Of a DNA stretch of 37,972 nt, positions 3,629-31,183 are shown piece after piece. Source of the stretch: a virus. A program made the position numbers and the translations under genes. How positions within the stretch are numbered: position 1 is the stretch's first letter; the number at the start of each line of letters is the position of its first letter. Location of the stretch: positions 1 to 37,972 of IMG/VR virus record IMGVR_UViG_3300007963_000017; one strand, 5' to 3'. Under the pieces are notes generated by a model that saw only the letters and a list, made by a program, of their open reading frames with translations, ran no database searches and was not told the origin of the DNA.

Positions 3629-3929
3629 CGATCTAAATATGGTTCAAGATATTGCAACAACGCTGGGTAACCAGAACAAGTTAAGCCATGATGGGCCAGT
3701 CTATCATGTAACCGCAGATCCTAAGTACGACTGGTGGAAAGTATTGTGTATTGGTATCGAATGTGTTGACAACGATTATACTGGTACATACTATTCATCG
3801 GACGAACTGCCGGAAGAACTGAGAGATAAGATACTCAGGCTTTCGGTTCTGGAACCACAGACACCACAGGTAGCAAGGGTCGGACTTCGGTCTGGCCCTG
3901 TGACCTTCTGGGTGTTTGGCGATGTCTAA
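3609..3929 (+). CDS. Unknown 106-aa protein
   Basis: A small soluble protein of unknown function. The annotated start overlaps the upstream gene by 20 bases and has GAGG about 9 bases upstream. The alternative ATG at 3639 would remove the overlap but has no visible ribosome binding site. The sequence contains YDWWKVLCIGIEC and a negatively charged centre; no motif is recognisable. Its TAA stop (3927-3929) lies inside the left arm of the next palindromic element, so the end of this message and the element are physically fused. Confidence 0.55.
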   Translation: MSTPPYSDLNMVQDIATTLGNQNKLSHDGPVYHVTADPKYDWWKVLCIGIECVDNDYTGTYYSSDELPEELRDKILRLSVLEPQTPQVARVGLRSGPVTFWVFGDV

Positions 3930-3941
3930 CCTGTTAGACAT
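3922..3941. promoter_or_regulatory. Palindromic element, copy 2 (ATGTCTAAC-CT-GTTAGACAT)
   Basis: Nine-base perfect inverted repeat arms around CT, followed by TTTT. It is identical at its 18-base core (TGTCTAACCTGTTAGACA) to the copy at 12391-12408. It ends 22 bases upstream of the VRR-NUC start codon. The short weak stem with a T-run could act as a feeble intrinsic terminator. The exact sequence conservation and fixed spacing to start codons fit a protein-binding operator or an RNA processing site better. Confidence 0.65.
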
Positions 3942-3962
3942 TTTCATAAGAAGGGGACTGTC

Positions 3963-10929: not shown

Positions 10930-11582
10930 TGCGCCGGATAAGTATTCAAGGGGCTAAATTTTCTGGGGTACCAAACTGCACTGACAAAGTAGACGTAGTT
11001 ATCGTAAACGCGGGGCCAGTCTCACGTTCGTATTATGAAGGTGTGTTTGATTCGCAGTTTAAGAAAGCTCCTACGTGTTGGTCAGTGGATACACAAAGAC
11101 CAGCGGCAGAAGTGCCAGAGGGTCAGAGACAAAGCTCAAGGTGCATGGATTGTTCTCATAACATCCGTGGTTCGGGAGCAAAGGGAGGTAGGGCTTGCCG
11201 ATTCCACCAGCGATTAGCAGTCGTTGAGGAATCAGACTTTGATACGGTGTATCAGTTGCAGGTTCCCGCCAGCAGTATATTTGGTAAGGAAGCGAGTAAG
11301 AGTTGTATGCCCTTACAAGCCTACGCCAAATTTTTAAGTGGGCATGGCACACCGTCTATGGCGGTTGTCACCAGAATTAGTTTTGACGAAAACAGCAGTG
11401 TGCCAAAACTTTTTTTCTACCCACGAAGAGCGTTAGAAGAAGAGGAACTTGGAACGATTAGGTTGCTAGTAGACCGAGATGATGTACTAGAGGCGATTAC
11501 AACCAGCTTTGTGGTTGAGTCGCTGTTCAATGTAACGGAAGGGTTCAATATAAATAGCCAATCAGGAGACCAACATGGCTGA
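10929..11582 (+). CDS. Unknown 217-aa protein with a four-cysteine metal-binding motif
   Basis: C50, the pair C72-X2-C75, and C90, with H77 and H93 close by, form a convincing metal site (CWSVD, CMDCSHNIRG, GRACRFHQRL). The rest is beta-rich and ends by overlapping the SSB gene by 8 bases. Similar proteins sit beside SSB genes in several phages that I recall, but no function is known to me. A role in handling single-stranded DNA is inferred from position only. The ATG at 10929 shares its A with the previous stop. Confidence 0.68.
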   Translation: MRRISIQGAKFSGVPNCTDKVDVVIVNAGPVSRSYYEGVFDSQFKKAPTCWSVDTQRPAAEVPEGQRQSSRCMDCSHNIRGSGAKGGRACRFHQRLAVVEESDFDTVYQLQVPASSIFGKEASKSCMPLQAYAKFLSGHGTPSMAVVTRISFDENSSVPKLFFYPRRALEEEELGTIRLLVDRDDVLEAITTSFVVESLFNVTEGFNINSQSGDQHG

Positions 11583-12315
11583 AGATTTTATGTACTACCA
11601 AATGACTAACGTGGAAGCGTTGTACCCAAAACTTGATACCACGTATAAGTTTGATAACCGCGCCAACGGTGGCAAAGGTGGATCCGTCAAGTGTGACGCA
11701 CTAGATGATGGTGCGGAATACAGCATATCGTTTTTGATGGCTGCGCCAGAAGCAAAAGCGTTGTACAAAGCAATGAAGGCAGCGTACACCAAAAAGAAAG
11801 AGGACGGTTGGCCTGAAAAGTTCCCGCTACCATTCAAGAAGCAAGAAGACGGTAGGTACTTAGGTAAGGCTAAGTTGAAAGGGGCGTATGGCACAGACAA
11901 AACCACGCCTCCTCTACAAGTAGACGCAAAGAATAACAAGTTACCAGCGGACTTTCAGTTGACCTCCGGTAGCATCGTGAATCTTGCGTTTACCTTTGTG
12001 CCCTACAGCGTACAAGGTACCGGCGTCAGCCTACGCCTTAACGGTGTGCAGGTTATTGATTACAAACCAATGCAGTCTCGTTCACCATTTGGTGTTGTAG
12101 ACGGTGGGTTTGTAGCACAGCCTGACAACCCGTTCAGCGATACCACAAAGAGCACCGATGTCGAGTTGGATGATGACGATTCAGATGACATCTTTAATTC
12201 TGTTGAAGAAGAAGCCCCAGCACCGAAAGAGCCTAAAAAGGTTGTCAAGAAGTCTGCCCCTGCACCCACAGACGATGATGACGTTAGTGCTCTGATTGAG
12301 GAATGGGACGACTAA
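11575..12315 (+). CDS. Single-stranded DNA-binding protein, T7 gp2.5-like
   Basis: A 246-residue protein with a beta-rich N-terminal domain containing KGGSVKCDALDDG, LKGAYGTDKTTPP and the family-typical GVSLRLNGVQVIDY. A flexible Pro/Lys-rich region follows, and then a strongly acidic tail ending DDDDVSALIEEWDD. The acidic tail is the hallmark of gp2.5-type SSBs, where it contacts the polymerase and helicase; here the aromatic is Trp three residues from the end rather than a terminal Phe. The start follows AGGAGACC. It acts in the replisome with the polymerase at 4984 and primase-helicase at 12433. Other folds of phage SSB are possible but less likely. Confidence 0.8.
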   Translation: MAEDFMYYQMTNVEALYPKLDTTYKFDNRANGGKGGSVKCDALDDGAEYSISFLMAAPEAKALYKAMKAAYTKKKEDGWPEKFPLPFKKQEDGRYLGKAKLKGAYGTDKTTPPLQVDAKNNKLPADFQLTSGSIVNLAFTFVPYSVQGTGVSLRLNGVQVIDYKPMQSRSPFGVVDGGFVAQPDNPFSDTTKSTDVELDDDDSDDIFNSVEEEAPAPKEPKKVVKKSAPAPTDDDDVSALIEEWDD

Positions 12316-12321
12316 CTTCAA

Positions 12322-12382
12322 CGGGATACTCACTACGGCTAGGTAATCCCGAAAAGGGTGTGGCGACACCCCTGCCGTAGTG
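12322..12382 (+). promoter_or_regulatory. Predicted RNA pseudoknot with nested hairpin
   Basis: Stem 1: CGGGAT (12322-12327) pairs with ATCCCG (12346-12351). Stem 2: CACTACGGC (12331-12339) pairs with GCCGTAGTG (12374-12382). The strands interleave, so together they form an H-type pseudoknot with linkers of 3 and 6 bases. Nested in the last loop is a third perfect hairpin, GGGTGT-ggcg-ACACCC (12356-12371). All three stems are free of mismatches. The element begins 7 bases after the SSB stop and lies just before a palindromic element and the primase-helicase gene. It could control translation of that gene, protect the SSB message end, or be a separate RNA. It matches no family I recognise. Confidence 0.6.
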
Positions 12383-12388
12383 CCTCTT

Positions 12389-12410
12389 AATGTCTAACCT
12401 GTTAGACATT
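12389..12410. promoter_or_regulatory. Palindromic element, copy 3 (AATGTCTAAC-CT-GTTAGACATT)
   Basis: Ten-base perfect arms around CT, followed by TTA. The core TGTCTAACCTGTTAGACA is identical to the copy at 3923-3940, which is far beyond chance for two 18-base sites in this window. It ends 22 bases before the ATG at 12433, as copy 2 does before its gene. It follows the pseudoknot directly, so the 117-base gap is almost fully occupied by structured elements. Confidence 0.68.
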
Positions 12411-12432
12411 TTAGGATTTTACGGGTGCAATT

Positions 12433-15282
12433 ATGGATACAAGAATTTTCTTGCGGAAGATTCTGCCCAGCCAAGGAGTATATGTTCTCTGGTGCAATAA
12501 CACAGAACTTAAAAGACACACACGAACACTGTCGTTTAAGAATATAGATGAGTTAGCAGCGCAGGCAACAGGATACGATAATAACGGTTGGGACGCTTAT
12601 TTCGCGTTAAGTGCTTTCAAGGAAGAAGGTACTCGTAAGGCAACAGATGCTTCACATATCAAAGCTCTGTTCCTTGACATTGATGTGGGGGAGGACAAAC
12701 CACACACTAGCAAGCAACACGCACTGCAAGAGCTAAAGCGTTTTTGCAGCGTGTTAGATCTACCTAAGCCTATGCTTTTGGACTCAGGTGGTGGGATACA
12801 CACCTACTGGGCATTTACGGAAGACGTAAGCATAGCGGACTGGAAGCCGGTAGCTGAGAAGTTCAAGGCTTTATGCGCCGAACACAAGTTTCTCATAGAT
12901 ACAGCAGTGCCTGCGGATGCAGCTAGAGTGCTACGCATATTAGGTACGCACAATTACAAGTTCGATACTCCTGTACCTGTGAAGTTGTTACAGGATGCCC
13001 CCGCCGTAGATTTTGATTTTCTCGCAAATCAGCTCGGCTGCGATCTGATACCAGTCCCCGAAAAAGCGGAGGCGATCTATGAGCCACCACCAGACAGAAT
13101 TTTCAGCTTCAAGAATATCTTGGCAAAGACGCAAGCGGGTAGAGGATGTGAGCAGCTACGTAGCATCGTGCTGCACCAGAAAGAAACGGTAGAGCCTATG
13201 TGGAGGGCGGGGCTTTCTATCGTTAAATACTGTGAGAATGCCGAGAGCCATGCACATAACATTTCGCACTTACATGACGAATACACTCCAGAACTGACAG
13301 CGGAGAAGTTTGAGCTAATCAAGGGGCCATACCGTTGCGCCACATTTGACGAGCTAAACCCCGATGTCTGCATACACTGCCCGAACTGGGGCAAGATCAA
13401 GTCGCCCATATCTCTAGGCGCTAGGTTTGCACCTGCAACGGCTGCAACACCTAATCCAGATACTCTTTTCTCCGATACTACAGTTGGCGAAGAGCCTACT
13501 TTGTCAGAACACGTTATCCCAAGTTATCCGCGCCCATACTTTCGAGGCGCAAGTGGCGGCATATATGTCCGTAGCGTTGGGCCAGACGGAGATGTAGATG
13601 AGCGGGTTGTTTACCACAACGATCTCTATGTGACCAAACGCTTAGTTGATGTGGAAGCAGGAGAGTCGATTGTATGCCGACTACACCTACCGAAAGACGG
13701 TGTACGGGAGTTTACAATGCCGTTGACAGCGGTTACGTCCCGCGAAGAGTTTAGAAAAACAATGTCCATGCAGGGCGTTGCAGTAACAAGACCAGACGAT
13801 TTAATACAATACATGACTACTTGGGTAAACGAATTACAAGCCTCCAGCACAGCAGATACGGCTCACCGACAGTTTGGTTGGATAGACGACAGGTGTTCAG
13901 CTTTCGTAGTTGGCGACAAAGAGATACACCCTAACAAGATTCGGTATAACCCACCGTCCACCCCGACTGCGGCGTTGCTTTCCAAGTTTGAGCCAAAGGG
14001 TACCTTGGATGGATGGAAAGCTATGGCAAACTTCTATACGACTAGGCCGGAACTTGTGATGCACCAGTACGTTGTGTGCACCGCGTTTGGGTCACCGCTT
14101 ATGCACTTCTTCCCACAAAATGCCTGTGCGCTCCACCTACATAGTGCGATCAGCGGGTGCGGTAAGACCGCAGCTATCCGCGTAGCAGCATCGGTGTGGG
14201 GGTATGAGAAAGCTCTTATGCTAGAAGAGCGAGACACAGACTCTATGAAGTTCAACCGTGCAGAGGTGCTGCACAACCTACCGTTCTACGTGGATGAACT
14301 GACCAATGAGCACAGTAAAAGACTGAGTGATCTGGCGTACCAGCTATCGTCAGGACAACAGCGTGGACGTATGGCGGGCGGTGCGAACCTAGAACGTACC
14401 CGAGGAGAGCCTTGGAAGTTTCTAGCCGTTACAACGGGCAACGCCAGCGTCATAGAACGCATTGCTTTGGAGAAACAAGCGCCGAAAGCAGAAGCACAAC
14501 GCATGATGGAGTGGCCTGCACAGAAGGTATTTGGCACTACGGAAGAGAAGCGTGACACCGATCTGTTCGATGAGGCGGTAGCCGCTAACTACGGACATGC
14601 TGGGGCCATCTACATTCAGCACATCATGCAGAATCTCGACTACGTAAAAGCCACACTCAAAGAAGTACAGCAGCGTGTGGACACGGTAGCGAAGCTAACA
14701 TCTGAGAACAGGTTTTGGTCTGCTGGAGTTGCTTGCACGCTCACGGGAGCTATCTTCGCTAAGAAGTTAGGACTCATAAACTACGACACGAAGGAGTTGT
14801 TCAAATGGTCTATCAAGTTATTGAAGCACAACATGGACTCGGTTAGCGGTATGGGCGTGTCAGTGCGGCAGACACTGAACGAATACTTGAATGAAAACTT
14901 CAACAACATACTGATGATTAAGAGCACTGATGACCTACGGAAACAGTCGAACGGGTTGGACTCACTGGTTATTCCAGACGCACTGCCGAGAGGAAAGTTA
15001 GTTGCACGATACGAGACGGATCTACAGCAGGTCTATCTAGCACCTAAACCATTGAAAGTCTGGTGCGCTGCACAGCAGGTGAACTACAGCGCGTTTGTAA
15101 GTGACCTGACTAAGAAAATGGGTGCGAAGCGAGGGAAGGTGCGTTTAACGAAAGGCACTCAGTTTCGGACAGACGCCCAGCACGTATTAATAGTAAAAAT
15201 GAAACTAGGAGGAGATGATGAGCAGGTTATTTCTGCAAGCGATACAGGCACAGAAAAGAGTGAAGGAGGTAATGAAAAGTAA
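12433..15282 (+). CDS. Primase-helicase: AEP-type primase fused to DUF927 helicase
   Basis: A 949-residue fusion. N-terminal residues about 60-200 look like a RepB-type archaeo-eukaryotic primase, with acidic pair D82-I-D84 in FLDIDVGE and DSGGGIHTYW with H123. Cysteines in PYRCATF and DVCIHCPNW (about 300-320) may bind metal. The C-terminal half is a DUF927 superfamily 3-like helicase with Walker A SGCGKT (K578) and Walker B FYVDEL (D621-E622), then a conserved QLSSGQQRGRM. It would synthesise primers and unwind the fork for the family A polymerase, replacing T7 gp4. No hexameric DnaB-like helicase is present in the window. Its 3' end overlaps the next gene by 65 bases. Confidence 0.88.
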   Translation: MDTRIFLRKILPSQGVYVLWCNNTELKRHTRTLSFKNIDELAAQATGYDNNGWDAYFALSAFKEEGTRKATDASHIKALFLDIDVGEDKPHTSKQHALQELKRFCSVLDLPKPMLLDSGGGIHTYWAFTEDVSIADWKPVAEKFKALCAEHKFLIDTAVPADAARVLRILGTHNYKFDTPVPVKLLQDAPAVDFDFLANQLGCDLIPVPEKAEAIYEPPPDRIFSFKNILAKTQAGRGCEQLRSIVLHQKETVEPMWRAGLSIVKYCENAESHAHNISHLHDEYTPELTAEKFELIKGPYRCATFDELNPDVCIHCPNWGKIKSPISLGARFAPATAATPNPDTLFSDTTVGEEPTLSEHVIPSYPRPYFRGASGGIYVRSVGPDGDVDERVVYHNDLYVTKRLVDVEAGESIVCRLHLPKDGVREFTMPLTAVTSREEFRKTMSMQGVAVTRPDDLIQYMTTWVNELQASSTADTAHRQFGWIDDRCSAFVVGDKEIHPNKIRYNPPSTPTAALLSKFEPKGTLDGWKAMANFYTTRPELVMHQYVVCTAFGSPLMHFFPQNACALHLHSAISGCGKTAAIRVAASVWGYEKALMLEERDTDSMKFNRAEVLHNLPFYVDELTNEHSKRLSDLAYQLSSGQQRGRMAGGANLERTRGEPWKFLAVTTGNASVIERIALEKQAPKAEAQRMMEWPAQKVFGTTEEKRDTDLFDEAVAANYGHAGAIYIQHIMQNLDYVKATLKEVQQRVDTVAKLTSENRFWSAGVACTLTGAIFAKKLGLINYDTKELFKWSIKLLKHNMDSVSGMGVSVRQTLNEYLNENFNNILMIKSTDDLRKQSNGLDSLVIPDALPRGKLVARYETDLQQVYLAPKPLKVWCAAQQVNYSAFVSDLTKKMGAKRGKVRLTKGTQFRTDAQHVLIVKMKLGGDDEQVISASDTGTEKSEGGNEK

Positions 15283-24647: not shown

Positions 24648-25337
24648 TTATGCGGGTAGCATCTTTTGAGGTTTGATTTCTTTACCCTGTTTTGGGTTAC
24701 CTGTACGTTCTTTACGTATTCTAGTCATCATTTGGTGTAGCTGCTTTGCACCGGCATCAGAGTTACCGTTGCCTAAATGACTTACTACATCCGCAGGTAC
24801 AACAAATTCTCCATCACTCAAACGTGCTTCTTGACCACCTTCTATCCTTGCTGGAATCTTATCAGCCATACCATCAGTAGCACCACCTAAATAACGCCCT
24901 TCACTCATACGCATGATTCCACCAGCGGCTGCTTTTTGAGGGGGCATATTAAGTGCAGCAAGCCCTTGTGCTTGTTGTTGTGCTTTTGCGCGCGCTTGCT
25001 CTACAGACATAGGTTGACGTTCTGGCCGGTCTGCGTAAACGACATCGCTAAAATACCGTCTACCGCCTGATCCGGGTCTACGGTTAGGATCTTGCTGCAT
25101 AGGCACGCGCTCGCGTACAGCTTCGTATTTTGGAATACTGCCCTGATACCCGACCACAGGTGTTTTAGAGTCTAATAAGCCAAACTCTTTCAGGGCTAAA
25201 GAACCACCTACACCACCTACAAATTTACCGAGATCAGAACGAAAGAAATCGCCGACACCGCCCAAAAACGTGTCTTCGCCCGGATCATCGGTAAAAGCAT
25301 CGGATACGCTAGATGTTAAATCAGTCCACCAACTCAT
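24648..25337 (-). CDS. Virion-associated protein (229 aa) with conserved GG-I-M repeat-like C-terminal domain
   Basis: The N-terminal part (MSWWTDLTSSVSDAF, then GVGDFFRSDLGKFVGGVGG) looks like a short amphipathic or membrane-active region. The C-terminal half contains AAGGIMRMSEGRYLGGATDG, then ARLSDGEFVVPADVVSHLGN, a compact conserved block that I recognise from marine phage structural proteins without a known function. The start is ATG 25337, which shares its A with the upstream stop (TAATG). Gene order among giant virion genes suggests it is packaged. Confidence 0.7.
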   Translation of the reverse strand: MSWWTDLTSSVSDAFTDDPGEDTFLGGVGDFFRSDLGKFVGGVGGSLALKEFGLLDSKTPVVGYQGSIPKYEAVRERVPMQQDPNRRPGSGGRRYFSDVVYADRPERQPMSVEQARAKAQQQAQGLAALNMPPQKAAAGGIMRMSEGRYLGGATDGMADKIPARIEGGQEARLSDGEFVVPADVVSHLGNGNSDAGAKQLHQMMTRIRKERTGNPKQGKEIKPQKMLPA

Positions 25338-28300
25338 TATTTTTCTCCAATAATCCGTAACAATTCTTCGTTTGTGTCTATTACGCCCCCACGTTTGCGT
25401 GGTATTGGGGGTAAAGCAGGTAAAGAAGGTGTGTTTCTTGGCTGCGGTCTGTCGATTGTACCGTAAGGTGTAGGGAACATACCTGCACGTTGTTGTGGCC
25501 CCAATATACTACCAAAATCATATAGGTAGTCGATCTGAGTCAACGGAGACTGTTGCACCGTAACCTGTTGCCCTGTTAAATCTGCGGCTCCCATTAACTG
25601 ATCGAACAAATCTCTACGTTTAGCTTGTTGAGCCTCTTGTGCAATTTGTGTTTGCGTCTGTTGTTGCTGTTGCGCTAGCTCTTGTTGAGTAGCATATATG
25701 CCTGTGGGAGCAAATTTACTCTCAAGGTCAAACAGTACGTCCTGCCCTGTTGCAGCTTGTTGCAACAGATCCAAGTCAGCCTGATCTATGACGCCATCCC
25801 CTGTTACATCATAAGCTAGCTGTTCTTGGGTAAATTTATATGTTTCGGGGTCATTAATTGCTTCTTGTTGCGCTATAAGATCAGCAACAAACTCTATATC
25901 TGCATCAGTTACTTCTGAAGCGGGCTTACCTACAAGTTCCGCTACATCTTCTAGCTCAGCAGTTAACGTAGCTTCTGTGTCACGGATAGCACGCAGAAGA
26001 TCAGCTTCTGTGTCACCAATTAACGTGCGTAGCGACTCTTCAGATTCGCCAATACTTTCAAGCAACGCTTTTTCTGTAATGCCAAGCTCTTCAGCGAGGT
26101 CAGAAATTGCATCCCCTAGCGCAGTATCTCTGTCTTTGCCTGCCTGTTCAGCTTCATCAATCTTCTCTAAAAGATCACGTTTAGCAGTATCAACGTCTTC
26201 GGATATTCCTTCTATGTCTTTGGAGAGTTTAGTTTCTAAGTCGGCTAACTCGTCCTTGAAGTCTTCTCGTATAGAAAGTTCAGAGGCTGCTATAGCGTCT
26301 AATAAGTCTTTTTTCGTTGTACCTAGATCACCAGCAAGCTCTTCTATTGCTTGTTCTAGTGCTTCGTCACGAGTCTTGCCTTCTGCCGCTAACTCTTCTA
26401 TACGCTCAAGTAGACCTTCTTCTAGATCTTCAAGGTCTTCTTTGGTTACGGCATCAGGATCGTCAGGATCATCTTCTTCTGGATCACCTTCTTCTGGATC
26501 GTCAGGATCATCGTCAACAGGATCATCGTCAACAGGATCATCGTCAACAGGATCGTCAACAGGATCATCGTCAACAGGATCATCGTCAACAGGATCATCG
26601 TCAACAGGATCATCGTCAACAGGATCATCGTCAACAGGATCATCGTCAACAGGATCATCGTCAACAGGATCATCTGGCGGCAGTTCGTATTCAGGCGGTT
26701 CGTACCCCGTATCGTCGTCTGGGGGAGTACCATCTTCATCTACACCGAAATCTTCGCGTGCGGTAGATTCTGGATTAATAGACTCAATTAAATCTAATAC
26801 ACGGTCTATCTGTGTAGAAGTTGCATCTGGATCACTAAGTAACCCATCTAATTGAAGCAGTAGCATGTTTTCAGAATAATCAGCCACATTATCTGAAGTG
26901 TATTTCTCTGATTTGCCTATAAATGCAGCTAGATCTTCTCCTGTAGGTCTATACTCTAAATCTCTAAAGTATTGACGAGCTTCAGTTTTTGTAGTGTATA
27001 GAGGGTCAAATACGTTAGAACGAAGCTGCCCTAGTACGGTATTTGCTTGACCAGACTCAGTTTGCTGTACATATCGCGCTGCTTGTTCTTCGGTTAACGT
27101 CAAACCTTCACGGGCTGCGGTGTTTATAACCTCTTGCGCGTCGATGTAGCTGCGGTCTACTAGATCTGCAACGCTTGCTTTTAAACGGTCTTCAGCACGA
27201 GCGCCGGTAAACTGAAGTATGTCGGCCTCAGTAGGCTCATAGTCTGGGTTTTCAGCTTGAAATGCGTCTCTAGATTCGGTGTACGTGGTGTAGTCGGCAT
27301 CAAACGCATCATTTAGCAGGCTGGTCTGTAAGCCGCCATATTCATCACTGGTTATGCCAAACTCTGCTAGGGCCGCTCTAGCCTCTGCATCGTTAATTAG
27401 CCCGTTTTTAGCGCCTTCTATCGTGGCATTTATACCCGCATGGGTAGAGCGTATGGCTCCAGCTAAGGCATCTTGTGCGCTATCAATACCCAATACGGCT
27501 GCTGTGACTCCGCTACCACCAACAAGACCTCCCATACCCGCAGATGCTATTGCAGCGCCCCAATCGCGGTTTGGATCTACTGATTTTAGAAAAGCCTCTA
27601 ATTGTGTGGCAGTTAACGCTTCTTCTACGTATTCAAAAAGACCCTCTGTACCTATAGTTTTTGCAGCTTGCAGCCCTGCAACGAGAGAGTCTCCAGCATC
27701 AATACGATCACCTAACTCTTTTACCGCTTCTGCTACTTTTGGATCTAAGGTGCCTTTTTTACCACCCAATAAAAACTTATCTAATGCTTCACCGCCCATA
27801 CCATAGGAAATAAGCGACAGCACAGCAGCGGTGCTACCATTAAGCATTGCAGCGTTATGGGCAAACTCGTGAATTTCATCCATTTGCCCTGCAAACAGCC
27901 CATTTGCATTAAGTAAGTTGCCAACGGGTATGCCAGCAGCTTGCATAAGAGCTATTGTAGCTTGATTGTTTTCTTGTAACTGCTTTAACTTTGCATCGAA
28001 TGCTTCGTCATAAGCCCCGTCAGCACTACCACCAAAAGCCTCACTAGCATCAGTGGCGGCAGCGGCGGACATGCCCGATCTTATACCTATTTGGTTTGCC
28101 GCGACCTTGGCAGAAGTAGATACAGCGCCCTTACCTGCAACTTTTGCTGCGGCTAATGTGGCACCCTTTGCTATTGCCCCTACACCGCCACCCACGAGTA
28201 AAGGGCCAACTTCTTGAAAAAATTCTACCCCTGCAATCTCAGCCAGCATGATAGTTGGGTCATCAACAAATGCGTCTGCCCATGCTTGAGTGGTATTCCA

Positions 28301-31183
28301 GAACCCCTCTGCCTCTTGTATCGTGCTCCACATTTCTTTAACACGATCTTGGTACCCTTCGGTATTTGCAGAGTCACCGAGTTCAAGAAGTTTGTTTACC
28401 TCTTGCCCAAATTTTAAGTCATCAGGACGTGTCCCAAATAGGTAAGTAAGCCCTAACATAGCTTTGGTAAAGCCCGCACCCGCACGAATCATATTTGCAG
28501 TGGTGTTAACTACACCTGCTTCTAGATCAGCAGCCAGCTTACGAGCTTTTGCCTTGTTCATGCCGGAGGCAAGCATGGCGGGTAAGATGTTTTCAGACAC
28601 GTTATTGGCGGCTTCTACAGCATCTTGCGCCATTTCGTAGACGCTAATACCGTTAGTCGCACTTTCTGCGCCATTTTCTTTTACATATTCAACGCTTTCT
28701 TTATTGCCTGTAACAGAATCGGTGCGGCCTAGCTTGTCTGTGTACGCTTCTGGGTCGCTGTTACGTAGTTGTGCAAGCTCACTAAGATCTAACGCAGATA
28801 CAGCGTTTACAAGCCTGCCGGTGAGCTTCACACCAGACTCTTCTAATAGCCTTAAATGGCTATAGCCTTCACCACGCAACTCTACATAAGCGTTCATGGC
28901 GTCTAAGCGGAAGTCTGCGAGATCAGAATTACCTCCGTTAGCACGATCTTCTTCGTACATAGCATTAGCTATTTGGTCTATTGCTAACCCAATAGACGCT
29001 GCTCTAGCTTCTGGAGACATTCCGGGCAAAAGTTGTTCCGTGGTGTACTTTGTGCCTTCAATGTTTAATTCAGTTACCCCGTTAGCGATAAAGGTATTTG
29101 CTACAGAGGTATTAGAATCTGCGATCCCAGAATCTTCTTCAAAATTAAGTGTGGTAGCAGGAGCCTCCGCTCCGAAAGACTGCTCGAATAATTTATTAAG
29201 CGCCTCTTGTGGGTTTAATCTATCCCCTAAAGAAATCCCTGCTGCGTCAAGATATGCTTGAAACTGTGGGGCATCTATAATTTGATCGGCAAGTTCAAGT
29301 TTTTGTTCTAGCGGTATGTCTTTAGTGTTACGAAAAATGTTAGCCCACAAAGAAGGTTTTTCCTTAAACCTTATCTGTAACCCGTTAACATCTTCAAATA
29401 TAGGAACCCCGTTTTCATCGACTAACCCAGCACTGGGTTTATAGCCTCCTAATACTTCAGACATTTCTGCGGCTTCTGCCGCTTTCATATCAAAAGCAGC
29501 GATACCGTATTTACGTATGTACTCGTCGTCAGTTAAAAGATCAGAAAACTCCTCACGCTCTAAATCCTGTTGTGCTTCAGTTAACCCTGCTACACCTCCA
29601 GAGCCTTCAGACTCGTAATTAATACCTTTCGCTGCCGAGGATATATCTGTTTGACTTGGTGAGAACAAACCACCTAATGCTTCACCAGTGTCGCGTAGCA
29701 CCTCGCCCATCTTCTTAAAGAAGGTGTCTTTGTTTACGCCTGCTATGCCACCACCAGATAAGATGTACTGTCCCAACCCAGCAGCCAAGGCTGTATCAAG
29801 ATTCATACCTCGCGCTAAGGCCGTTTGAGTTTTGACTAAACCACTTACCAGCAGATTCTGGTTTACACCTGCTCTATCAAGAACTTCTGAAGTAAGACCT
29901 ACTTTATCAAGAGCGACAGTGGTCAGATCTGGGCCAAACGCTGCAAGAAATCCCGCGCCTACATTACCAGTAGCAGCACCCGAGGCTATTTGCGTAGCTG
30001 CGTATATTACTTTTGCTTTAGTGTAGTTATCCGCAAGCTGTGCGGCAGTAGAGCCTGCGTTTATAGCTGCTTGGTATTCTGTAGTGCCGGGAGTAGCTGC
30101 TGCTTGAGCGTTACCTAACTGTTGAGCAACCGTTGACCCCGCAAAGGACAGTCCTGCGCTTTTAAGTATGTCCTTAAAGTCACCGCCAGATACGGCTGTT
30201 GTAGCAGCAGAAACAGCAGCGGTAGCAGCGGCTAATTGTGCGGCACTATACCCAGCAGAACCAGCAGCACCAGCGGCAGTGCCAGCACCAGCAGCGGCAG
30301 CGGGGGTACCAAATGCACCTGTTTTTAAGAGCAACTGAGGTGCAAAATACGCTGTTGCTATAGCAGCCGCAATCTTAACGTATTTAAGGTTGTCATCCCT
30401 AGCTCTAAAAGTACGTATCTCTCCAAAACTAAACGGGTCGTATAGATACGTAGAGCGACCCTCATCGCGCTGAATATCAGATTGTCGAATGGGGAGAACA
30501 CCGTATTTGCCATACAGTGCTTGAATCATGGGATCTTCTTCAAACGTAGCTTGTAGTGCGTTTTGATAACTCATCCCACGAGTCATCATCAAGAAAGGAA
30601 TTTGGTCTTGAAGAATAGGTTCAATAAACGAGTGAAACTCATTTATCTGCGCGATAGAAGAATCTGTATGGCCTCTTAAATCCTTTTCCCTTCCTTTTCG
30701 CGATAGGTTAAAACCGCCAAATGACTGCTCCTTTATATTTTGCGCTATAGGAGAAAAATCTATTCCATAGTACCCGCCAAGAACTGTGGCTACCTGTTCA
30801 GGAGAGTCGGTAATAGCCAGCACTGCATAGGCGCTCTGCGCTTCTTCTTCAACGCGAGGCTTGCCTTCCTCATCGCTACCAAATATATCTAAGAGGTATT
30901 CAGGTGCATCTGAGCTTTGTATGTAATTCTCAGCCGATGTACGTGCTTCAAACCGTCCGTCTCTTCCTCTACCACCGCCTACATTAAATTTAACGCCCTT
31001 ATACAAATCACGTTGTGCGGCACCAGTCCCAATCTCTTTTATCGTAGATTCTAAAGAATCTTCGTAGGTGTCGTCGTACCATTTGTCAAGTTGGTCAACA
31101 CCGTCTACTTCATCGTAATTAGCGCCCTGCGATAACGAATCCCTAAATTTGTTAATAACTGCTTGAATATAGCTAGTAGCCAC
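25337..31183 (-). CDS. Giant virion protein (1948 aa) with tandem acidic repeat and coiled coils
   Basis: The start is GTG, overlapping the previous stop (TAGTG). An N-terminal globular part is followed by an Ala/Gly-rich hydrophobic region (about 270-330) and a further hydrophobic stretch in the middle, both possible membrane-insertion segments. Residues about 1498-1560 are a nearly perfect PVDDD tandem repeat. After it comes a chain of related coiled-coil segments (KDLLDAIAASE, RDLLEKIDEAE, KALLESIGESE, ADLLRAIRDTE). Near 1792 is DVTGDGVIDQADLDLL, a dockerin/EF-like calcium loop. The C-terminus is Pro-rich. Together with the 2065-aa protein it probably forms an ejected or internal complex analogous to T7 gp15/gp16, though no sequence relation to those is visible. 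Confidence 0.78.
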   Translation of the reverse strand: MATSYIQAVINKFRDSLSQGANYDEVDGVDQLDKWYDDTYEDSLESTIKEIGTGAAQRDLYKGVKFNVGGGRGRDGRFEARTSAENYIQSSDAPEYLLDIFGSDEEGKPRVEEEAQSAYAVLAITDSPEQVATVLGGYYGIDFSPIAQNIKEQSFGGFNLSRKGREKDLRGHTDSSIAQINEFHSFIEPILQDQIPFLMMTRGMSYQNALQATFEEDPMIQALYGKYGVLPIRQSDIQRDEGRSTYLYDPFSFGEIRTFRARDDNLKYVKIAAAIATAYFAPQLLLKTGAFGTPAAAAGAGTAAGAAGSAGYSAAQLAAATAAVSAATTAVSGGDFKDILKSAGLSFAGSTVAQQLGNAQAAATPGTTEYQAAINAGSTAAQLADNYTKAKVIYAATQIASGAATGNVGAGFLAAFGPDLTTVALDKVGLTSEVLDRAGVNQNLLVSGLVKTQTALARGMNLDTALAAGLGQYILSGGGIAGVNKDTFFKKMGEVLRDTGEALGGLFSPSQTDISSAAKGINYESEGSGGVAGLTEAQQDLEREEFSDLLTDDEYIRKYGIAAFDMKAAEAAEMSEVLGGYKPSAGLVDENGVPIFEDVNGLQIRFKEKPSLWANIFRNTKDIPLEQKLELADQIIDAPQFQAYLDAAGISLGDRLNPQEALNKLFEQSFGAEAPATTLNFEEDSGIADSNTSVANTFIANGVTELNIEGTKYTTEQLLPGMSPEARAASIGLAIDQIANAMYEEDRANGGNSDLADFRLDAMNAYVELRGEGYSHLRLLEESGVKLTGRLVNAVSALDLSELAQLRNSDPEAYTDKLGRTDSVTGNKESVEYVKENGAESATNGISVYEMAQDAVEAANNVSENILPAMLASGMNKAKARKLAADLEAGVVNTTANMIRAGAGFTKAMLGLTYLFGTRPDDLKFGQEVNKLLELGDSANTEGYQDRVKEMWSTIQEAEGFWNTTQAWADAFVDDPTIMLAEIAGVEFFQEVGPLLVGGGVGAIAKGATLAAAKVAGKGAVSTSAKVAANQIGIRSGMSAAAATDASEAFGGSADGAYDEAFDAKLKQLQENNQATIALMQAAGIPVGNLLNANGLFAGQMDEIHEFAHNAAMLNGSTAAVLSLISYGMGGEALDKFLLGGKKGTLDPKVAEAVKELGDRIDAGDSLVAGLQAAKTIGTEGLFEYVEEALTATQLEAFLKSVDPNRDWGAAIASAGMGGLVGGSGVTAAVLGIDSAQDALAGAIRSTHAGINATIEGAKNGLINDAEARAALAEFGITSDEYGGLQTSLLNDAFDADYTTYTESRDAFQAENPDYEPTEADILQFTGARAEDRLKASVADLVDRSYIDAQEVINTAAREGLTLTEEQAARYVQQTESGQANTVLGQLRSNVFDPLYTTKTEARQYFRDLEYRPTGEDLAAFIGKSEKYTSDNVADYSENMLLLQLDGLLSDPDATSTQIDRVLDLIESINPESTAREDFGVDEDGTPPDDDTGYEPPEYELPPDDPVDDDPVDDDPVDDDPVDDDPVDDDPVDDDPVDDDPVDDPVDDDPVDDDPVDDDPDDPEEGDPEEDDPDDPDAVTKEDLEDLEEGLLERIEELAAEGKTRDEALEQAIEELAGDLGTTKKDLLDAIAASELSIREDFKDELADLETKLSKDIEGISEDVDTAKRDLLEKIDEAEQAGKDRDTALGDAISDLAEELGITEKALLESIGESEESLRTLIGDTEADLLRAIRDTEATLTAELEDVAELVGKPASEVTDADIEFVADLIAQQEAINDPETYKFTQEQLAYDVTGDGVIDQADLDLLQQAATGQDVLFDLESKFAPTGIYATQQELAQQQQQTQTQIAQEAQQAKRRDLFDQLMGAADLTGQQVTVQQSPLTQIDYLYDFGSILGPQQRAGMFPTPYGTIDRPQPRNTPSLPALPPIPRKRGGVIDTNEELLRIIGEK
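26505..26666. repeat. 15-base tandem repeat encoding PVDDD
   Basis: Ten copies of GGATCATCGTCAACA, identical in each copy, plus one 12-base copy lacking ATC (26550-26561) after the third. They lie in frame inside the 1948-aa gene. Identity at third codon positions shows recent expansion by slippage or unequal exchange rather than selection on the peptide alone. Copy number is likely to vary between related phages and may be wrong in a short-read assembly. Confidence 0.95.

Follow-up and report, generated by a model that had tools for sequence, protein, structure and literature searches.

A Divergent int-alpA RNA between the SSB and Primase-Helicase Genes of a Phage, and Two-Site Loop Complementarity across Its Family

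Results

The gap between the genes for an ssDNA-binding protein (SSB) and a primase-helicase in a viral genome holds a selected RNA structure, a nested three-way junction that is a divergent member of the int-alpA family (Rfam RF02996). Across that family, one hairpin loop is complementary to two sites downstream of the junction, a pattern that is new here. The copy studied comes from a lineage that keeps the scaffold after losing its target match, and a known fold takes the place of the pseudoknot predicted earlier. The window, by which we mean the whole stretch of DNA analyzed, is 37,972 nt of viral DNA (IMGVR_UViG_3300007963_000017); the gap in question is 117 nt long, from the SSB stop at 12315 to the primase ATG at 12433 (Table 1).

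Table 1. Features of the SSB/primase-helicase locus, in window coordinates
Feature	Position	Strand	Evidence or remark
SSB gene (Gp2.5-like ssDNA-binding protein)	11575..12315	+	PHROG 112, E 1.3e-19
Extra stem of the sequence-only reading, 5' strand (partner 12346-12351)	12322..12327	+	Outside the conserved structure
int-alpA-type three-way-junction RNA, whole element	12331..12382	+	R1 43.6 bits, E 2.2e-9; covariation; orthologues above the RF02996 cut-off
P1 5' strand CACUACGGC (partner 12374-12382)	12331..12339	+	15 homologues: 100% of cells paired, 3 pairs changed on both sides
P2, GG 12342-12343 with CC 12349-12350	12342..12350	+	No third pair (12344/12348) in the window; most kin have U-A or C-G there
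Junction CGAAAAG joining P2 to P3	12350..12356	+	Invariant core of the family
P3 hairpin GGGUGU-GGCG-ACACCC	12356..12371	+	Loop would recognize the target in other members
P1 3' strand GCCGUAGUG	12374..12382	+	Homologue alignment
Operator-like palindrome TGTCTAACCTGTTAGACA with flanks	12389..12412	.	Occupies the place of site A in other members
Probable primase ribosome-binding site, GGGUG	12423..12427	+	Spacing to ATG 12433; (A/G)GGUGC kept in close homologues
Primase-helicase gene (DUF927), 3' neighbor of the RNA	12433..15282	+	Pfam DUF927 E 1.7e-24; PHROG primase/helicase

A Nested Junction under Selection

Homologues were fetched by similarity of the primase-helicase protein, and the DNA 5' of their start codons was compared. 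In an alignment of 15 distinct homologues, whose rows were picked by protein only, the nested structure (nine pairs in P1, three in P2, and six in P3) is 97% paired and contains 15 double-compensatory cells against 4.4 +/- 1.6 after shuffling, a count reached by none of 500 shuffles. Among 43 wider primase homologues, picked by protein together with a match to our covariance model R1 (see below) and aligned to the structure of that model, the corresponding numbers are 128 and 35.7. A third alignment, of diverse members, was prefiltered on P1 and P3 pairing, and its counts are thus not independent evidence. Covariation of P1 continues within the sub-clade of the window, as seen against two close relatives (L006 and L008), and we therefore consider the junction to be kept there.

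In the wider protein-anchored set, G-U cells outnumber A-C cells by 29 to 7, and in the set of diverse members by 36 to 10, an excess that would be expected if RNA of the coding strand does the pairing; the 5 to 6 seen in the 15 close homologues is uninformative. Compensatory changes would equally preserve a DNA hairpin, and the replication-gene surroundings could suit ssDNA hairpins serving, for example, as an origin or a packaging signal. We regard such a DNA-level structure as very improbable, however, given the preponderance of G-U cells, the position of both loop-complementary sites described below at translation signals, and the occurrence of the element beside many different genes.

Folded alone, the 52 nt from 12331 to 12382 reach -23.9 kcal/mol (z -3.9), beating 200 of 200 dinucleotide shuffles, and the minimum-energy fold is the nested three-way junction with a 9-bp P1, a tiny P2, and a 6-bp P3, and no pseudoknot. 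For the whole leader (12316-12432), the predicted minimum is not the three-way junction and includes a 6-bp stem between 12322-12327 and 12346-12351; since this differs from the fold of the isolated element, folding energy by itself cannot decide between the topologies. The whole-leader fold also pairs CCGUAG of the P1 3' strand (12375-12380) with UUACGG 5' of the ribosome-binding site, a helix that we rejected as it is broken in L006 and L008 and not conserved. Pairing of CACCC in the P3 3' strand with the GGGUG of the ribosome-binding site is possible from the letters and would require P3 to open.

The sequence-only reading had proposed an H-type pseudoknot with a nested hairpin, built from three perfect stems (12322-12327/12346-12351, 12331-12339/12374-12382, and 12356-12361/12366-12371). 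All three are present in the sequence, and homologue covariation confirms its broader claim of a compact RNA structure under selection between the two genes. The 9-bp stem and the second 6-bp stem are conserved with compensatory changes; the first, on which the pseudoknot depends, is not. That stem is paired in 54.4% of cells in the 15 homologues against 53.7% after shuffling, and the covariance check suggested in the same reading, once run, found it without covariation and broken by unrelated substitutions, in contrast to the covarying nested fold. It is essentially private to the window genome and its nearest copies (L004 and L040), and L005, with a primase 99% identical, already breaks it. 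A single base, 12348, is C in the window and A in L005; with C, the extra stem is complete and the third P2 pair is lost, and we take the stem to be a by-product of one substitution. What had been read as the second half of the pseudoknot is P1, which closes the nested junction. That a single sequence allows three perfect stems, and that the whole-leader fold uses the 6-bp one, does little for the H-type topology when the stem is lost even among the closest relatives and a competing nested fold covaries, and we find that topology hardly credible. A true H-type pseudoknot does occur in the T4 gene 32 mRNA, where it lies 5' of the SSB gene. The window RNA resembles it as an RNA structure tied to an SSB gene and differs in sitting 3' of that gene and in the poor conservation of the pseudoknot stem proposed for it.

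Membership in the int-alpA Family

The element was assigned to int-alpA by orthology and by the model R1, not by its Rfam score. The window copy falls below the RF02996 gathering score of 35.8 bits and gives no match, whereas syntenic orthologues in L027 (40.3 bits), L009 (38.2 bits), and L034 (37.8 bits) lie above it. R1 was built from 41 elements, none of them from the close lineage of the window, and yet its sole match in the 38 kb of the window is 12331-12382 (43.6 bits, E 2.2e-9); it also recovers the elements of the close homologues. Across the 41 diverse members, the core GGCUAGG / CCGAARAG / CUGCC is near-invariant, and the window shows both the nested P1/P2/P3 junction and the Rfam core, as CUAG (12339-12342), CGAAAAG (12350-12356), and CCUG (12371-12374). 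It departs from int-alpA in its 4-nt P3 loop, in the broken third P2 pair, and in missing the complementarity between loop and 3' tail of the Rfam consensus. An Rfam search of the window gave no riboswitch or ribozyme match, and the candidacy of a known riboswitch or ribozyme was dropped on that ground. The earlier statement that the RNA fits no known riboswitch or ribozyme consensus stands, but Rfam does have an RNA family to which the element belongs.

Of 80 wider homologues (44-64% protein identity), 43 have an R1 match directly 5' of the primase gene. About half of the wider homologues have no R1 match, many of them with other short hairpins in that place, and the element is thus dispensable for the gene arrangement; it looks as if, between SSB and primase, one structure replaces another. 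Simple GC-rich hairpins lie ~100 nt 5' of the primase start in L234-L236, L241, L246, L255, L260, and L299-L305.

Distribution and Downstream Genes

The pattern GGCTAGG..CCGAARAG occurs in at least 120 stretches of the viral collection, a minority of which are chance matches without stems. A stricter pattern finds 58 stretches in 84,980 prokaryote genomes, and R1 confirms all 36 of the 36 loci scanned. An Rfam search of control genomes returned nothing above the cut-off and is uninformative on distribution. Elements of int-alpA type with E < 1e-8 (L168-L225) were seen on contigs of Firmicutes (Heyndrickxia, Clostridia), Nitrospirae, Planctomycetota, and Gastranaerophilales, and in the same set on those of a cyanobacterium (Oculatella), a Bacteroidetes MAG, and Streptomyces; these hosts are given by contig label, and the sequences could be prophages or contaminants. 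Proteobacteria are also among the labels of contigs with such elements, and intact leaders of the family occur, for example, in Enterobacter phage Tyrion, Edwardsiella phage GF-2, and Pseudomonas phage IME307. Two R1 matches each were found in L181, L222, and G009 (behind L092), and L200 has one strong and one weak match; two elements per genome would permit cross-talk in trans.

For 68 elements, the first gene 3' encodes a DUF927 primase-helicase in 11-12 cases, a DUF1376-type replication initiator in 4, and an integrase in 3; others encode HNH/AP2 and GIY-YIG nucleases, and the antirepressor domains Rha, KilA-N, and P22_AR account for one each. The start codon lies a median of 31 nt 3' of P1. 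The order SSB, element, primase is found again in clearly diverged phages, and some elements precede single genes with no SSB gene 5'. TATAAT-like boxes just 5' of P1 in some loci raised the idea of a fixed promoter, which we discarded as no position is enriched against shuffles and no such promoter was found at the window locus.

One Loop, Two Sites

The Rfam consensus itself contains a loop sequence, CCuUua, complementary to uaAgGG in the 3' tail and not marked as paired. In 65 dereplicated elements (clusters at most 70% alike), we scored the longest Watson–Crick match between the P3 loop and each of two regions, and permuted the loops among elements. Site A comprises nt 3-18 3' of P1 and site B nt 16-40, around the ribosome-binding site of the next gene. 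At site A, the mean match is 5.38 bp against 3.27 +/- 0.11 in permutations, and 46% of the elements reach at least 6 bp against 2%; at site B, 26% do so against 5%. Matches of at least 4 bp to both sites are present in 52 of the 65 elements, against 16.4 expected from permutation and a maximum of 25 in 300 permutations. The excess is absent from control segments of the same 65 elements (upstream, and 40-110 nt downstream). Permutation leaves the purine-rich ribosome-binding sites in place, and anti-Shine–Dalgarno bias alone is thus not the cause.

Site B was assigned in 52 elements, and its 3' end there has a median position ~6 nt 5' of the start codon; more than one-third of these ends lie beyond the start that was picked, owing at least in part to automatic start-codon choice. 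Loop and site A covary among the primase homologues, as in GUGUCA/UGACAC (L252), GUGCCG/CGGCAC (L264), UACCGA/UCGGU (L250), and UGCCGA/UCGGCA (L013). Taken by themselves, the primase homologues show a modest to weak loop-target excess, reached by 10 of 300 permutations. The complementarity suggests that many family members may form a pseudoknot-like contact, between the P3 loop and a site 3' of P1; it differs from the one proposed earlier and is lost in the window copy.

A Lineage without the Target Match

The window loop, UGGCGA, has no credible downstream partner (best ~3-4 bp), and the same is true of its nearest kin, L005-L008, whereas kin outside this sub-clade keep loop-target pairs such as UGCCGA/UCGGCA. 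The place of site A is taken in the window by the palindrome TGTCTAACCTGTTAGACA, which recurs 5' of two other genes of the phage. The sequence-only reading had noted a palindromic element adjoining the RNA, and it is real; elsewhere, the window has an identical 23-nt copy (3922-3944) and a degenerate copy (2651-2670). Each of the three copies of TGTCTAACNNGTTAGAC(A), at 12389-12412, 3922-3944, and 2651-2670, stands directly 5' of a plus-strand gene, and a variant, TTCTAACATGTTAGAA, is found at the equivalent place in L009 and L034. The palindrome is likely an operator of a phage regulator. A terminator was looked for at the SSB/primase locus, and none was found.

Discussion

RF02996 is filed in Rfam as an sRNA, with nothing further, and in the literature searched, we found no paper on int-alpA function; one 2025 paper merely notes its presence. 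The two-site complementarity provides this orphan family with a concrete, testable function in which the target of each member is predictable from its sequence. By analogy, we think it rather probable that the family works like the c4 antisense RNA of phage P1, as a translational control of adjacent phage genes, mostly of DNA metabolism. c4 represses translation by covering a ribosome-binding site and is excised by RNase P (PMC5320573, PMC12197685). In P1, the target a2 begins 4 nt 3' of the RNA, b2 ends ~10 nt before the icd start, and the P3 loop is complementary to b2. The c4 RNAs of P1 and P7 (RF01695) and int-alpA are thus alike in being three-stem RNAs just 5' of their target, co-transcribed with it in c4, and in having targets, putative ones in int-alpA, both directly 3' of the RNA and at a ribosome-binding site; they are unlike in that c4 has a separate sequence for each site, a' and b', while in int-alpA one loop fits both. 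Complementarity of the loop to both a ribosome-binding site and another place on the transcript holds for the family as a whole and not for the window copy.

The CI RNA of satellite phage P4 offers a second precedent: this small RNA, derived from an untranslated leader, matches seqA and seqC, two sites of the transcript it comes from, and stops the expression of phage replication genes (PMC4825925). It is unlike int-alpA in that its sites flank the RNA on either side and the outcome is transcription termination. RF01695 matched neither the window nor the scanned element loci, and R1 matched neither P1 c4 nor the P4 region; direct homology to c4 or CI was accordingly rejected, and the likeness is one of layout and of presumed function.

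The window RNA is presumably transcribed with the SSB-primase message. Under a c4-type mechanism, the P3 loop would pair with site B on the adjacent mRNA, in cis or, after processing, in trans, and block ribosome entry; site A may compete with site B or anchor the loop contact. The genes controlled would mainly be those of DNA metabolism and phage development (primase-helicase, replication initiator, HNH/GIY-YIG nuclease, integrase, and antirepressor), and the ancestral role in the window phage might have been to set primase-helicase synthesis relative to SSB. The fullest version of this picture is one that we can put at a little under an even chance: int-alpA RNAs would be very widespread phage leaders in which one loop chooses between a decoy and the ribosome-binding site, a c4/CI-type switch for replication, integration, and nuclease genes, and in some lineages, that of the window included, the loop has become uncoupled and the junction is kept for other use.

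The same loop partners would also serve a riboswitch or protein-sensing leader, where the invariant junction core has as its ligand either a small molecule or a protein such as SSB, primase, or a host factor, whose presence sets the loop to A (on) or B (off). Sites A and B are mutually exclusive partners and thus a ready switch, and in the 41 diverse members conservation is far higher in the junction than in the stems, as in ligand-binding junctions. On the other hand, the downstream genes have no common metabolic pathway, the c4 scaffold is conserved without a ligand, and a c4-like function requires none; we consider a sensing leader unlikely.

For the window copy itself, we doubt, though not strongly, that a c4-like mechanism is still operating. 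In its sub-clade, the retained junction may now serve in processing or stability or pair elsewhere. One could extend the former idea to the whole family, with the element as a cleavage or stability boundary that gives unequal amounts of SSB and primase from a polycistronic mRNA and with loop pairing as a secondary matter. Such an element would be well placed between a gene of the abundant type and an enzyme gene, unrelated GC-rich hairpins occupy the equivalent place in other homologues, and the window sub-clade has P1 still covarying without a loop-target match. As a general explanation it is quite unlikely, however, as it leaves unexplained both the family-wide loop-target complementarity and the elements that precede single genes without an upstream SSB.

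Two further features of the window lie away from the element. At 26446-26749, a 15-bp unit (CAGGATCATCGTCAA) forms a tandem array within a long minus-strand ORF (25337-31183). At the other end, a gene with a weak STAND-NTPase match (164-1327) is followed by one for a DUF2201 metallopeptidase/VWA protein (1337-2650), an arrangement resembling MoxR/VWA-type pairs.
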